DNA of 20,067 bases from a virus. The notes under the pieces were generated by a model that made no database searches, had not been told where the DNA came from, and worked only from the letters and a program-made list of their open reading frames with translations. The DNA is taken from the IMG/VR virus record IMGVR_UViG_3300006922_000259, positions 1-20,067 of that record. One strand, written 5' to 3'. A program made the translations under genes and the position numbers. Positions 2,887 to 8,413 of this stretch are shown piece after piece; the stretch's first letter is position 1, and every line of letters starts with the position of its first letter.

Positions 2887-3708
2887 TTAACTACCGAAGG
2901 TCAGTGTTGCTGCACCATCGGTGATCACCTCTTCTGTACCGCCAGCAGACGTAATCTTGACGCGATACTTGTTGCCGTCCAGAGTGTCGCCAGCGAGACC
3001 ACTGTAAGCAAGAGTTGCGGTCGTGAAGTCTGCATAGGTGATACCAGTGTCAAGGGAAGCAGAGATGTTAGTCCAACGCTTACCGCTTGCTGTCTGACGT
3101 TGCCAGACGTATGCAAGAGCACCAGGTGTGCCTGTGGTGGAGGTGGTAAGAGTAAACGTACCAGCGCCAGAGGAAGATGTAGAAGCAGCAGGTTGTGCAG
3201 TAACAGTTACAGCAGATGCCACGTCGGCAACCACAGTATCGTCAGCGTCATCACCAGCAGCGGCAGCAGTAGCATGGACGAATGCTAAGCACTCTGCCTT
3301 ATGCTTGGTGTCACCAGCAGCAGTGGTGTATGTGCGATACAACCACCAACCAGGACTATTGATACCACGAGACTTGTTCTCAGCGAGCACCATCTCAGTA
3401 GTGTCAACGAACACGAGATCGTATGCGTTGCTGTCACCACCCTTAACAACGAACTCAGCAACTGCCTTAGGAGCAGTCCTGCGGACAGCACCAGCGAGAG
3501 CAGCATCAGTGCTACCTGCATATGCTTTGTGCAATTCAACTGTGGTGGTGCTTGTCACTTGCTTAACAATGTAAGCAACACTGGATAGTTCCAGAATGTC
3601 ACCTACGACTACGGTGTCTGCTGCATTCTTCGTAACAGTGGCGTCACCATTGGTGACCGCTACGTTGTTCGCGAAAGTTGCGGCATCAATTTTTCCAAAT
3701 ACAGCCAT
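2887..3708 (-). CDS. Virion structural protein with C-terminal Ig-like domain
   Basis: This 273-aa protein is rich in Ala and Thr. The N-terminal half is beta-rich. It is followed by a segment at about 113-142 (including GINSPGWWLYRTY) that I associate with cyanophage head or structural proteins. From about residue 165 to the C-terminus there is an Ig-like pattern: TVTAQPAAST, a Trp in YVWQRQ, YADFTTATLAYSGL, and a final NKYRVKITSAGG strand. Ig-like folds commonly decorate phage capsids and tails (T4 Hoc is an example). The gene has its own TATAAATA late promoter 35 nt upstream, which supports late, structural expression. An AGAGAGAAC sequence precedes the ATG. Two long antisense reading frames over it are by-products of its codon bias. 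The exact location in the virion is unknown. Confidence 0.8.
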   Translation of the reverse strand: MAVFGKIDAATFANNVAVTNGDATVTKNAADTVVVGDILELSSVAYIVKQVTSTTTVELHKAYAGSTDAALAGAVRRTAPKAVAEFVVKGGDSNAYDLVFVDTTEMVLAENKSRGINSPGWWLYRTYTTAAGDTKHKAECLAFVHATAAAAGDDADDTVVADVASAVTVTAQPAASTSSSGAGTFTLTTSTTGTPGALAYVWQRQTASGKRWTNISASLDTGITYADFTTATLAYSGLAGDTLDGNKYRVKITSAGGTEEVITDGAATLTFGS

Positions 3709-4242: not shown

Positions 4243-4622
4243 TTAGAACTCTTGCCAGCGGCCTTGTCGTCATGATCCTGAGTCATCTGCATCATCTTCT
4301 GCTTCATGCGATCCTTTGCTTTCTTTTTAGCATCGGAGTCATCCACCTTAGCAGCAGCGGGTGCTTCACACTCTTCTTTCTTAACGTCTTGACCTGGTTC
4401 ATACCACTTGCCATCACCATCAGAATCCTGCCAACGCTTACCTGCCTTGGCGGCCTTGATGTTCTTCGCTTTCTTCTTAGCGGATTCTCTGAGAGACTCC
4501 ACCTCGTTACGAACAATTTTTCTTAGTGATTCGGACATGAGATCTTCCTTCTTAGGGTTGATAATTACGTTACCTTTCTTCTGAGTGGTAGTAATGTTTT
4601 GTTTGACTTGATCGGTCTTCAT
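4239..4622 (-). CDS. Charged hypothetical protein with an EF-hand-like DxDxDG loop
   Basis: This 127-aa protein is highly charged and mostly helical. In the middle (about residues 62-78) it has RWQDSDGDGKWYEPGQD, whose DSDGDG core matches the first half of a calcium-binding EF-hand-type loop. Around it are Lys/Ala-rich segments (ESAKKKAKNIKAAKAGKR and DAKKKAKDRMKQKMMQMTQD). It resembles small scaffold-like or internal virion proteins in composition only. The ATG at 4622 overlaps the stop of the 510-aa gene as ATGA; Met29 is a less likely internal start because it would lose the coupling. The position within a late-promoter block supports expression with structural genes. Confidence 0.68.
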   Translation of the reverse strand: MKTDQVKQNITTTQKKGNVIINPKKEDLMSESLRKIVRNEVESLRESAKKKAKNIKAAKAGKRWQDSDGDGKWYEPGQDVKKEECEAPAAAKVDDSDAKKKAKDRMKQKMMQMTQDHDDKAAGKSSK

Positions 4623-6151
4623 TGATCGAGACCCATTTCAGAACGCCATGAATATGTATTCTCTTCTCCCATGCGTCTTGCTACGCCACGAGCACCACGG
4701 GAAACTGAACGAGCAACGCCGCCCACAACTTTCTTGATACCAGACTTAATTTTATCACGCAGTCTAGTGCGTGGTTCACTGCTAGAACTACTGGAACTTC
4801 CACTGTTGTTGCTAGTAGAACCAGAGGAATCGGATGATGTAGAACTACTACCACCTGATGTAGAACTACCTTGGGATCCACGCTCGTAACCTTTCTTGAA
4901 GTTACTAGCAGCGCCCTTAGCAGCACGACCAGCGGCACCAGCAGCATACCCAGCACCCTTAGATGCAGCAGAACCTGCCTTTTTGAGACCAGACTTAACA
5001 GCAGATCCAGCAGACTTCAATGCTGCTTTCATCTTCTCGCGTCGTGCTCCGACCTCAGGTTTTGCCTCAGGTTTCTTATCACCAAGACGCTTACGTGCCT
5101 CAGCACCAGCATCTCTACCAGCACTCTGACCTTGACCAGAAGAAGCAGATGCTTTGTCCTTCAAGCGAAGAGCGTTGACCTTAGCAGGACTGGTGACCTC
5201 AGTCAGCAGATCGATACCATCTAGGATCTCAAAGGTTTCTTGAAGATCTTCGATGTCGAGTTCGTTAAGTGCCTCTACACAGATGTCATGCAGTTCTTCA
5301 AACGTATAGTCATCGAATGCTTCATCAAGAATAATCTCATTGACGAGTGCATCAAACTCTTCGTTCTTCTTTTTGAGTGCTGCCTTACGGAAAGTAAGAT
5401 CCGTGCGACTGCCGCTGTCCATCTTGCCCTGACTCTGTGGTTTCTTAGAACCACCAGCAGGTTGAGGACCAGCATCACTACCAGTTCTTCTGCCCTGAGC
5501 ATACTTAGATCCACTGGACTTAGAGTCACCAGAGATCATCTTACCAGCATCGGAACGACCGTCCTGATACTGCTTCTCAGTCTGACCGTGCTTACCCTTG
5601 TAGAGTTCGTCAATCTGATCCTCTTCCTTCACGCAGTTAGGAACTTCCTTACCACCTTTCTTCTTAGTACCCTTCGCCTTATATCCATCCCAACATGTAG
5701 AAGCACCAACGTTCTTACGTGCTGACTTCATACCCTCAACCATCTGGTTGTGGAGATCATCGATATCAATCCACTCCCTCTGCATATTCAAACCGATATC
5801 TTCGGGTGCCTTAGCAGTCTTCTCGCCTTTCTTACCGACAACAGAATAACGACCATCAGACTTCTTGCCTGTGATCACCATAGACTGACCACCTTGTGAG
5901 ATCACTCTACCGATATTACGATCATCTTTGAACTTACCTTTGTTCTTAGTGATCAGATCTTTTTCGATAGGGAACCCAGCGTATCCTTCTACGACTTCTT
6001 CGTGCGAGTCGATAATCTCTTCGACTGTGGTAACTGCGGATCGAAGACGAGCGGTGGGTGCCTGCTTACCTTCCTTCACGCAGTCGAGAATTGTGCGCTG
6101 TTCTAACAGGGAGAACCCCATTAGTGCAGCACTAACCTTGATATCCAGCAT
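4619..6151 (-). CDS. Large low-complexity virion-type protein with a histone H1-like basic tail
   Basis: This 510-aa protein starts at the ATG at 6151. The frame is open further upstream to 6214, but that would place the start before the late promoter at 6175-6182. The N-terminal part (1-180) includes a small beta segment (about 79-108) and CWDGYKAKGTKKKGGKEVPN (153-172), a motif I associate with cyanophage head-region proteins. An acidic helical segment follows at about 263-318. Residues 372-425 are Ala/Lys/Gly-rich with repeats such as GSAVKSGLKKAGSAASKGAG. After a run of Ser (about 428-458) there is a basic Arg/Gly tail. The IDLLTE sequence near 313-318 fits the T4 gp21 protease pattern (I/L-x-E). 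It is probably an internal head or core-associated protein; exact role unknown. Confidence 0.72.
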   Translation of the reverse strand: MLDIKVSAALMGFSLLEQRTILDCVKEGKQAPTARLRSAVTTVEEIIDSHEEVVEGYAGFPIEKDLITKNKGKFKDDRNIGRVISQGGQSMVITGKKSDGRYSVVGKKGEKTAKAPEDIGLNMQREWIDIDDLHNQMVEGMKSARKNVGASTCWDGYKAKGTKKKGGKEVPNCVKEEDQIDELYKGKHGQTEKQYQDGRSDAGKMISGDSKSSGSKYAQGRRTGSDAGPQPAGGSKKPQSQGKMDSGSRTDLTFRKAALKKKNEEFDALVNEIILDEAFDDYTFEELHDICVEALNELDIEDLQETFEILDGIDLLTEVTSPAKVNALRLKDKASASSGQGQSAGRDAGAEARKRLGDKKPEAKPEVGARREKMKAALKSAGSAVKSGLKKAGSAASKGAGYAAGAAGRAAKGAASNFKKGYERGSQGSSTSGGSSSTSSDSSGSTSNNSGSSSSSSSEPRTRLRDKIKSGIKKVVGGVARSVSRGARGVARRMGEENTYSWRSEMGLDQ

Positions 6152-6173
6152 TGATCTAGGGAAAAGTATAGTA

Positions 6174-7220
6174 TTATTTATTGGAAATAGACTTTTGATT
6201 CTTGACGAACTCACTGAACTTCTTCATTTCCTGCCCAGGAGTCATGTTCTGAACCGCTTGTCTGTACTTGTCGGTACCAACTTTCCAGTCATTACCACTA
6301 CCATCGTCGGCAGAATGATTGGATTGGTTGTCACTTACTTCACTAATATCCTGCAACCAAGTGCGGTGTTCAGTGCCGTCAGGCATCTGCATGATGACAT
6401 AGTTAGTACCTCGGTGAGCAACTGTGCCACGCATACCACTGTCGTCATGCTCTACAACTGCACCAACCTTAAAGATGTGATCTAGCATATAATGATCTCG
6501 GAATGCTGCAAAGTCTAGCACAGGTGCATACTCCCAGACAGATTCCTTAACCTCTGCTTTCTTCTTAGCAGGTGCTTTCTTCTTCTCAGGTGGTTTCATG
6601 CCGTCAACGACATGTTGCATCATCTCCTTGCTCTTCTTATAACCACCAGATCCAGCATGGAATGCGTCGTGGTTACCACCTTGTGCATGTTTTCTCATCT
6701 CACTGGCGGATAGTTTCTCTACTTCATCCTCACTGTCAGGGTTACGAGCACCAGCAGATTTGATATTGATAGACTTGAAGTCGTAATGCTTACCGTTGTA
6801 CTTCGATGTCAGATTCTCAAACTCTTTGACACGATCATCACCAACAACCATAGTGACATGCTCATGACCCTCATCATGTAGGTCACGTAGGATGTCAAAG
6901 ATATTTCTATGCTGCTCAGAGTTCTGAATAGCATCCTTGTGGTTCTTAAACATGCCACGCATGTGTTCAATCTTCTGCTCAGGGTGCAGAGGATTCTTCT
7001 TATGATCTTGTGTTCTAGAAGGATAGATCCGATAGTTACCAGAGTCACCAGCATGTGACTTGACAGCATCCATCAACTTACCATGACCAGCATGGGGAGG
7101 GTTGAACCTACCGAAAGTGATGGCAACATGCTTGTCTATTACCTCATTCTTCTTCTTAGAAGATGATGCTTTCTTGGCAACAGCGGCTGCTGCTTCGATA
7201 ATGAACTGACGAAACCTCAT
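6174..7220 (-). CDS. HxGH-family nucleotidyltransferase with a capsid-targeting-like N-terminus
   Basis: This 348-aa protein belongs to the HIGH-type nucleotidyltransferase superfamily (NMN/FAD/CTP transferases), which joins a nucleotide to a phosphorylated substrate. FGRFNPPHAGH (36-46) carries the HxGH motif at 43-46. VVGDDR (125-130) and LSASEMRK (170-177) match the later nucleotide-binding motifs, the last one like the ISxTxxR motif. The substrate cannot be told. A Lys-rich linker (about 209-226) leads to a C-terminal KOW/SH3-like segment (about 246-295). The start chosen is ATG 7220 (ATGA with the previous stop); a TTG at 7229 is also possible. From 7220 the protein begins MRFRQFIIEA, like the T4 internal-protein capsid-targeting sequence MKTYQEFIAEA, cut after Glu by gp21. 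The stop overlaps the late promoter at 6175. Confidence 0.85.
   Translation of the reverse strand: MRFRQFIIEAAAAVAKKASSSKKKNEVIDKHVAITFGRFNPPHAGHGKLMDAVKSHAGDSGNYRIYPSRTQDHKKNPLHPEQKIEHMRGMFKNHKDAIQNSEQHRNIFDILRDLHDEGHEHVTMVVGDDRVKEFENLTSKYNGKHYDFKSINIKSAGARNPDSEDEVEKLSASEMRKHAQGGNHDAFHAGSGGYKKSKEMMQHVVDGMKPPEKKKAPAKKKAEVKESVWEYAPVLDFAAFRDHYMLDHIFKVGAVVEHDDSGMRGTVAHRGTNYVIMQMPDGTEHRTWLQDISEVSDNQSNHSADDGSGNDWKVGTDKYRQAVQNMTPGQEMKKFSEFVKNQKSISNK
6175..6182 (-). promoter_or_regulatory. T4-type late promoter AATAAATA
   Basis: The minus strand reads AATAAATA, matching NATAAATA. It starts inside the TAA stop codon region of the nucleotidyltransferase gene (6174-6176) and lies 23 nt ahead of the chosen ATG (6151) of the 510-aa protein. 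The promoter position is also the reason for not using the upstream starts of that frame. Confidence 0.75.
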
Positions 7221-8413
7221 TTGCCCCAATCTTTTGCTACGGTAAAGTTTGCACGAGAGAATTCAAGTCTATCAACAAGTTTGACTGCCATGCCATCCTT
7301 GATGGCCACAAATCCTTCTGGACTAGTGACTTTGTATCCTTTCTCATCTTCTAGAAATGTACCAACACCCTCAATTTTTTTGAGGCGTTCGATGATCTGC
7401 TTCTTAGCGTTAATGAGATTCATAAATCCTCCCAAAGCAGCATAGATTACAGACTTATCACTATTTAGTTGTTTTAGTGCCTCCTCTTTTTTCTTTTCCC
7501 AGTTTTCCTTTGCCTTAGGCGTCTTCACACCTTCCACTTTCAATGCATATCTAGACTCAACAAAGGTTTTGAACTGAACCAACATCTGCGATGAACTAGT
7601 AGGCATCTTACCTGACTTGATCACTTGGTTGAAATAAATCTTAAACAAACCAGCAGTTCCCATACCCTTAGTAGTACCACCGATCTCATTCAAGAACTTC
7701 CTAGATGAATCCAAGTTGCGCTTCGCAGTTCTCATACTCATGTTGAGTTTGTTCATCTCACCAGCACTGAGGTTTGCAATGCCGTTGGTATTGGTGAAGT
7801 CTGATGAGAATACTGCCACATCAGACACACCTTGAAGACCAGAAACATTAACACCAAAACCAGCAGACATTTCAGCAAGAGTCTGACCAGTGTACTTAGT
7901 ATGAAATACAATACCAACCGTAGACTTACCTACCTTGCCACCCATCTCGGTTGCTTTCTCTACACAGTAAGTAATAGTATTAGGTTTGAACTTGTAGCAT
8001 CTCTTGCCACCCATAGTAACCAGTGGTGGTGTCTCTGTATACAGAAGATCTCCTTGGATCACACCAGTGATAGGCAACTTTGATAGGTAATCGTATGCAG
8101 CAACCAACTTAGGATGCACACCAGTGCCGCCATACCATAGGTCAATCTCTTCATGGGAGTAGCATACCTTAGGTTCAGTCTTAGCAAAGACAGACTTGGT
8201 TCCAACAAAGAACATGTCCGTCTCAGGGTCTATGCCACAGATGATAGCAGGAGCACCGTCCCACTTCACAGTAACCTTAGTATTACCACCACCACTACCA
8301 GTGGTCAGCATACCTTTTAGACCCTCCAAGAATGCAAGTGCATTCTGAGCGCCAGCATAACCATTGTTGAAGATGTCATCTTCTAGGTGTTCGAGGTGTG
8401 TGTTCTTACTCAT
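7217..8413 (-). CDS. Ligase-like nucleotidyltransferase superfamily protein (putative)
   Basis: This 398-aa protein shows an ordered set of motifs like those of covalent nucleotidyltransferases (ATP-dependent DNA/RNA ligases): VKWDGAPA (Lys50-x-Asp-Gly, motif I), FFVGTKS (68-74), GVIQGDLLY (117-125, motif III-like), GIVFHTKYTGQTL (167-179, motif IIIa-like), PEGFVAIK (365-372, motif IV) and AVKLVDR (376-382, motif V with Lys378). Lys50 would be the adenylylated residue. The roughly 185-residue insert between IIIa and IV is mostly helical and unusual. The N-terminal HLEHLEDDIFNNGYAGAQNA is typical of a family I recall in marine phages (often listed only as a DUF). ATGA overlaps at both ends couple it to the 446-aa and HxGH genes. 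It could seal, cap or modify nucleic acid, or be an inactive relative. Confidence 0.7.
   Translation of the reverse strand: MSKNTHLEHLEDDIFNNGYAGAQNALAFLEGLKGMLTTGSGGGNTKVTVKWDGAPAIICGIDPETDMFFVGTKSVFAKTEPKVCYSHEEIDLWYGGTGVHPKLVAAYDYLSKLPITGVIQGDLLYTETPPLVTMGGKRCYKFKPNTITYCVEKATEMGGKVGKSTVGIVFHTKYTGQTLAEMSAGFGVNVSGLQGVSDVAVFSSDFTNTNGIANLSAGEMNKLNMSMRTAKRNLDSSRKFLNEIGGTTKGMGTAGLFKIYFNQVIKSGKMPTSSSQMLVQFKTFVESRYALKVEGVKTPKAKENWEKKKEEALKQLNSDKSVIYAALGGFMNLINAKKQIIERLKKIEGVGTFLEDEKGYKVTSPEGFVAIKDGMAVKLVDRLEFSRANFTVAKDWGK

Follow-up and report, generated by a model that had tools for sequence, protein, structure and literature searches.

We analysed a 20,067-nucleotide stretch of viral DNA (IMG/VR record IMGVR_UViG_3300006922_000259, positions 1 to 20,067; hereafter the window), in which a nucleotidyltransferase gene starts with a short sequence, or tag, resembling the capsid-targeting sequence of phage T4 internal proteins. 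The window is a 20-kb piece of the genome of a T4-like cyanophage (Kyanoviridae). Among the isolates of the phage collection, Synechococcus phage S-WAM1 is closest: its enzyme is 83% identical to that of the window, and the two share the gene order NrdA, primase, head protein, H1-like protein, nucleotidyltransferase, DUF6267, MazG, helicase, UvsX and polymerase. The features of the enzyme gene and of its partner are as follows (a slash marks a cut; pLDDT, predicted local distance difference test).

6174-7220, minus strand: tagged nucleotidyltransferase gene, 348 amino acids plus stop, phrog_395 'cytidyltransferase', start checked
7191-7220, minus strand: capsid-targeting-like N-terminus MRFRQFIIE/A, residues 1-10, recognised from sequence, conservation and the residues shown to be important in T4 IPIII (PMC9026906)
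7194-7196 (Glu9) and 7191-7193 (Ala10), minus strand: predicted gp21-type cut between the two, from the motif
7134-7190, minus strand: Ala/Lys/Ser low-complexity linker, residues 11-29, differing between homologues in both length and sequence (alignment; pLDDT mostly below 50), the predicted new N-terminus after cleavage
6591-7133, minus strand: catalytic nucleotidylyltransferase domain, residues 30-210 (PF01467, E=1e-7; AlphaFold pLDDT about 88; Foldseek)
7083-7112, minus strand: GRFNPPHAGH motif, with an SASxMR motif at residues 171-176
6333-6473, minus strand: C-terminal small beta domain (SH3/KOW-like), residues 250-296 (predicted strands 255-295)
6204-6224, minus strand: KKFSEFV at the C-terminus, an additional FxxF element similar to the cyanophage gp21 C-terminus AFSEFLKNL
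7217-8413, minus strand: DUF6267 partner gene, 398 amino acids, untagged in the window (PF19782, E=8e-127)

The 348-residue frame opens at ATG 7220 and positions 7191-7220 encode MRFRQFIIEA, as the original prediction, made from the sequence alone, had stated. We regard this start as secure because the start codon shares bases with the TGA of the gene upstream (ATGA), an in-frame TAA lies directly before the ATG in 9 of 55 close relatives, and no alternative in-frame start was found in codons 2-45; the sole competing start is a TTG three codons upstream.

We found that the first ten residues, inspected in homologues as a possible refutation of the tag, are conserved in close and distant relatives alike. 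All 54 close viral-contig relatives reaching the N-terminus, and S-WAM1, start with M[RK][FY]xxF[IL]xEA, the variants including MRFIQFIREA, MRFIEFIREA, MRFITFIREA and MKYQQFISEA; position 3 is Phe (Tyr in one relative) and F6 is invariant. The tag is retained in loci L040-L043, although the enzyme gene there no longer overlaps that of DUF6267. A further 81 more distant loci, with about 40% identity overall, start with M-K-[KSN]-F-x-A-F-L-x-E-A, the exception being a Phe at the Leu in L148; Phe also replaces Ile/Leu in a few cluster C homologues, and E9 and A10 are invariant across 136 loci. Distant homologues carry a tag of the 11-residue T4 length (e.g. MKKFSAFLTEA and MKSFLQFLKEA), as seen in the named phages P-RSM4 (MKKFNAFLIEA), ACG-2014d (MKKFSDFLSEA), ACG-2014f (MRSFLTFLTEA), S-SCSM1 (MKSFLQFLKEA), MC09 (MKGFSNFLIEA) and S-CRM01 (MKLFNQFFKEA). 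The invariant columns of a 23-sequence alignment were M1, F6, E9 and A10, the next being T35 at the edge of the catalytic domain with none between, and the residues after the tag (about 20-60) vary across the tagged family. Codons at the fixed residues change synonymously (TTC/TTT for F6, ATT/ATC/ATA for I7 and GAA/GAG for E9), and selection therefore acts on the protein, not the DNA. The enzyme of S-SKS1 (L155) is unannotated, its tagged N-terminus MKSFFQFLFES and its catalytic part lying in different frames, so that it is frameshifted or mis-sequenced.

The T4 proteins IPII and IPIII start with MKTYQEFIAEA. The first ten residues of IPIII suffice for packaging, residues 4 and 7 acting in targeting and 8 and 10 in processing, and the protease gp21 cleaves after L/I-x-E (PMC9026906). 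The fixed positions of the window tag (aromatic, Phe, Ile/Leu, Glu, Ala) are these same positions: the T4-type targeting residues (aromatic 4, Phe 7) are found at positions 3 and 6 of the window enzyme, the processing residues (Ile/Leu 8, Glu 10, then Ala) at 7, 9 and 10, and the tag lies within the first 10-11 residues of the true start. Comparison with the T4 sequences bore out the matching Phe-Ile-x-Glu-Ala end and N-terminal position claimed in the original prediction; the claimed identity of spacing holds from the first aromatic residue to the cleaved Ala, but the window tag is one residue shorter in front (MR-FRQFIIEA versus MKTYQEFIAEA). The cargo also differs, being a 348-residue enzyme in the window and a small basic protein in T4.

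The tag letters further resemble capsid cleavage sites. In T4, maturation of the major capsid protein removes a propeptide of 65 residues (PMC5694885), and the cut falls in GSFLTE/AE, the same letters as in MKKFSAFLTE/AE of S-SM1-like homologues. Corresponding cyanophage capsid sites, with cut positions inferred from the motif, are GILTE/AAPT in S-SZBM1, GLLTE/APT in S-CREM2, and GVLSE/AAPT and GLITE/AAPT in two enzyme-bearing records of 186-187 kb. Both records encode gp21 and gp23, the enzyme of the 187-kb record being 80% identical to that of the window; gp21 and a gp23 with a matching site are also present in S-WAM1 and S-SZBM1, and the window is a fragment without that region. By analogy of sequence, the peptide MRFRQFIIEAAAAVAKK is predicted to undergo a gp21-type cut after Glu9.

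Based on T4 genetics, we scanned start codons for an aromatic residue at position 3 or 4, Phe at 6 or 7, a hydrophobic residue next and Glu at 9 or 10. This pattern matched 13 of about 19,000 start-like codons from seven sources, and all 12 matches in annotated records were annotated gene starts; together with the conservation, the scan rules out a chance origin of the tag. A stricter first pattern (Ala/Ser/Gly/Asp after Glu), which had missed an S-adenosylmethionine (SAM) hydrolase and a kinase and gave some internal matches, was replaced by the T4 positions. Of 4,828 start-like codons in S-CREM2, exactly four fitted, each of them an annotated gene start whose product is among the 52 virion proteins of 219 genes (hypergeometric p=0.003). 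These are the SAM hydrolase (MKDFDSFLEE), an APH-like kinase (MKRFDAFLTEE, GTG start), gp136 (MQTFSMFFSED), annotated as unknown, and the nucleotidyltransferase, and they thus include enzymes annotated as unrelated kinds. Similar sequences occur in the further S-CREM2 virion proteins gp13 (MKDLHSFLTE) and Cas9-like gp12 (LRFASFMAEA, internal to the annotated start). More broadly, a tag stands at or near the start of S-CREM2 gp6, gp12, gp13, gp14 and gp136 (L065, L058), which comprise enzymes and small virion proteins. The T4 matches were IPII, IPIII and gp61.1; T4 gene 61.1 (AF158101, 18966-19130) encodes a Lys/Glu-rich hypothetical protein of 54 amino acids starting with MKTFKEFIKED, possibly an unrecognised internal protein of T4.

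The tag also behaves as a movable module. We scanned viral contigs for DNA encoding MKxFxxFLxEA starts, counting frames of at least 100 amino acids, and obtained at least 72 reading frames, of which at least 48 encode the window-type enzyme; other tagged frames among the matches listed encode DUF6267 (L189), DUF5661, DUF192 and a polynucleotide-kinase-like protein (L191). Many tagged enzymes carry a second element of about 40 residues (GHGGW/GYGxY ... VAKTxxGKL) directly after the tag, which is also present in the S-SCSM1 enzyme (L152:38819-40048), S-CREM2 gp12 and gp14, virion-type kinases and many viral contigs; the window enzyme is without it. A search of viral contigs for relatives of an S-CREM2 protein gave one locus only. 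The enzyme is tagged and DUF6267 untagged in 145 of the 147 sampled loci holding both genes. L189 has the reverse arrangement, in which DUF6267 (6418-7623, minus strand) starts with MKSFQTFLNEA and the adjacent enzyme (6362, minus strand) is untagged and begins at its catalytic domain, and DUF6267 of L219 has the tag-like start MLSFTTYLTE next to an enzyme without a tag. These data suggest that the enzyme and DUF6267 travel together, one tag serving both. We give even odds to a general tag-based loading system in T4-like marine phages, in which a short N-terminal sequence, sometimes with the GHGGW mini-domain, would be moved between unrelated enzymes, with untagged partners piggybacking; the cargo proposed with it, at the same even odds, comprises the nucleotidyltransferase, DUF6267, SAM hydrolase, kinase, Cas9-like nuclease, DUF5661 and DUF192, which would act early, probably in counter-defence.

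Virion presence, proposed at the outset as a check, was found for homologues in published mass spectrometry of purified virions from at least four cyanophages, subject to the carry-over caveat given below. S-SM1 virions contain T4-GC190, a cyanophage core protein reported in 2010 as a 'putative citidylyltransferase' (PMC3037559), S-SZBM1 virions contain S-SZBM1_140, a homologue in the gene order of the window, with two peptides (PMC9146016), and S-SCSM1 ORF91 and S-CREM2 ORF154 were likewise detected, both papers also citing an S-CBWM1 homologue in virions (PMC9602691, PMC10665884). The tags of the detected homologues are MKKFSAFLNEA (S-SM1), MRFRQFIIEA (S-SZBM1), MKNFSSFLTEA (S-CREM2) and MKSFLQFLKEA (S-SCSM1). 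These NMNAT-like enzymes or cytidylyltransferases (T4-GC190, S-SZBM1_140, S-SCSM1_91 and S-CREM2_154) are homologous to that of the window and mostly share its gene neighbourhood, but the accessible texts offer no mechanism for their virion presence. S-SZBM1 virions also contain the neighbours 139 and 136; DUF6267 was not detected (PMC9146016).

These observations confirm the tag and support its interpretation as a packaging signal. We favour an explanation, to which we assign a probability of roughly 0.84, in which the tag is of T4 type and leads to loading, cleavage and delivery. During head assembly, the aromatic-x-x-Phe-[Ile/Leu] core of the tag would bind the scaffold core; a gp21-type prohead protease would then cut after Glu9 to leave a mature enzyme starting at Ala10 inside the filled head; and at infection the enzyme, probably with DUF6267, would enter the host with the DNA and act ahead of phage gene expression. 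Capsid targeting by the first ten residues is very likely, cleavage at Glu9 likely, and entry into the host reasonably probable. The original prediction of a new injected effector carried in the head is supported as to head loading; the virion location of this enzyme family has been published since 2010, and cleavage and injection are inferred.

Several points weigh against this explanation. The authors of two of the four virion papers, those on S-SCSM1 and S-CREM2, warn of lysate carry-over in cesium chloride preparations; enzyme peptide counts are low (2-3 in S-SZBM1 and S-CREM2); and we found no report of a semi-tryptic peptide beginning at the predicted new N-terminus. S-SZBM1_191 fits the pattern, yet is absent from the detected virion proteins, and T4 IPI and Alt are packaged despite divergent tags, so that the pattern misses some packaged proteins and does not always predict packaging; moreover, its exact form was fixed after the cyanophage sequences had been seen, though its positions derive from T4 genetics. 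The enzymes of S-CAM1 and MED4-213 lack a clear tag, as does their DUF6267, and a shift of the tag to DUF6267 in these phages was accordingly rejected; short untagged homologues occur in the same two phages and in the jumbo phages PBECO4 and CBB.

The carry-over warning and low peptide counts, along with an AlphaFold helix at residues 3-18, could also mean that the conserved N-terminus is a helix intrinsic to the enzyme, serving in dimer contact or regulation, and that an abundant late protein contaminated the virions. We consider this very improbable, as the same motif starts other kinds of enzyme that are likewise virion proteins in S-CREM2, stands on DUF6267 instead in L189, and is set apart from the catalytic region by a linker that is not conserved and varies in length and composition. 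In addition, the tag region is of low confidence in the model and reproduces the capsid protease site, and the polymerase, UvsX and helicase, all encoded nearby, are missing from the S-SZBM1 virion list (PMC9146016).

Alternatively, the tag may be real but belong to a structural or prohead core protein that does not reach the host and whose fold is a remnant. Cleavage followed by loss of most of the product is the fate of gp22, gp67 and gp68 in the T4 core, and the beta domain and second FxxF tail at the C-terminal end of the family would fit such a role; even so, we think it distinctly unlikely. The beta domain is a separate gene in S-CAM1 and part of a different gene in MED4-213. FxxF[ILV] elements are found at the C-termini of the window-type enzyme (KKFSEFV), cyanophage gp21 (AFSEFLKNL; L063, L169, L152, L165 and L166) and the T4 Alt propeptide (DFASFVSS), and may possibly be scaffold-binding signals too. 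Alt, an ADP-ribosyltransferase injected with the DNA, resembles the window enzyme in being carried in the head, in having a short N-terminal propeptide and in the FxxF[V] element, which lies in its C-terminal propeptide, but differs in its divergent tag (MELITELFDE) and its chemistry.

As for the function of the enzyme, the PF01467 match, intact (H/T)xGH and SAS(x)xR (Ser...Arg) motifs and Rossmann-type fold identify an HxGH nucleotidylyltransferase. Foldseek matched the model to PPAT, NadD and NMNAT structures with a probability of 1.0, whereas looking for solved relatives directly by sequence had no useful result. Family scores lean towards NadD/NadR below the cut-offs (TIGR00482, 24 bits versus 112; TIGR01526, 19 versus 341), and the enzyme, although sharing fold and (H/T)xGH motif with NadD, NadR and PPAT, scores below the cut-off of every named enzyme family. 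In L217, the tagged enzyme is fused to a kinase domain, which recalls NadR. The nicotinamide adenine dinucleotide (NAD)- or nucleotide-linked role suggested originally is a tentative reading of the fold and of weak family matches. The HxGH/TxGH enzyme would most likely make or restore a dinucleotide cofactor such as NAD, and NAD-type chemistry is our leading, if tentative, guess. Membership in NARP1 (Adps and Namat) was rejected, since Namat is Nampt-like, not HxGH, and differs in fold and motif.

DUF6267 has invariant KWDG, EGFV and KLVDR motifs in the alignment, like those of covalent nucleotidyltransferases and ligases, and a ligase-like nature is a lead. These motifs (K-x-D-G, E-G-F-V and K-L-V-D-R), the joint presence of both genes in the 147 loci and the resemblance of the tagged L191 protein to polynucleotide kinase might indicate that the two proteins serve not in NAD synthesis but in the repair or modification of nucleic acid ends, either of host RNA or of the incoming genome. 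However, a fold search with the model of DUF6267 had no significant match (T4 RNA ligase 2 at E=0.8 only), the best family and fold matches of the enzyme are NadD, NadR and PPAT, and the L217 fusion again recalls NadR; we consider end repair rather unlikely.

No earlier report of a capsid-targeting sequence in cyanophages was found in the literature searched, which covered few subscription journals; within it, neither the tag nor its broader occurrence in cyanophages nor its swap to DUF6267 appears to have been described, the virion location of the enzyme being already known. The tag offers a mechanism for virion presence, where published studies leave cargo versus carry-over open, and it predicts an exact mature N-terminus and allows further cargo to be recognised by sequence in many marine phages that have not been cultured. 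If this holds true, abundant ocean viruses deliver enzymes in finished form just as infection begins, and a peculiarity of T4 becomes a feature common to T4-like phages of cyanobacteria.

Two other genes in the window are candidates for head proteins.

4619-6214, minus strand: homologue of virion protein S-SZBM1_139, with ATG 6151 as its probable true start
2887-3708, minus strand: homologue of virion structural protein S-SZBM1_136, phrog_613 head protein

The 4619-6214 protein has an acidic half, a predicted site LLTE/VT or LLSE/D and then an Ala/Lys/Gly histone-H1-like half, and a module shared with proteins of other cyanophages that are otherwise different spans its residues 200-276, at up to 93.5% identity; it is likely to be a cleaved DNA-binding internal head protein. 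Elsewhere, the N-arm of the mature capsid protein (GFTGAAAPEGPVAGYDP or similar) recurs in S-CREM2 gp160 (L058:28343-29236), S-SM1_197 (L060:32806-33354) and a protein of L211, as though these imitated the cut end of gp23.
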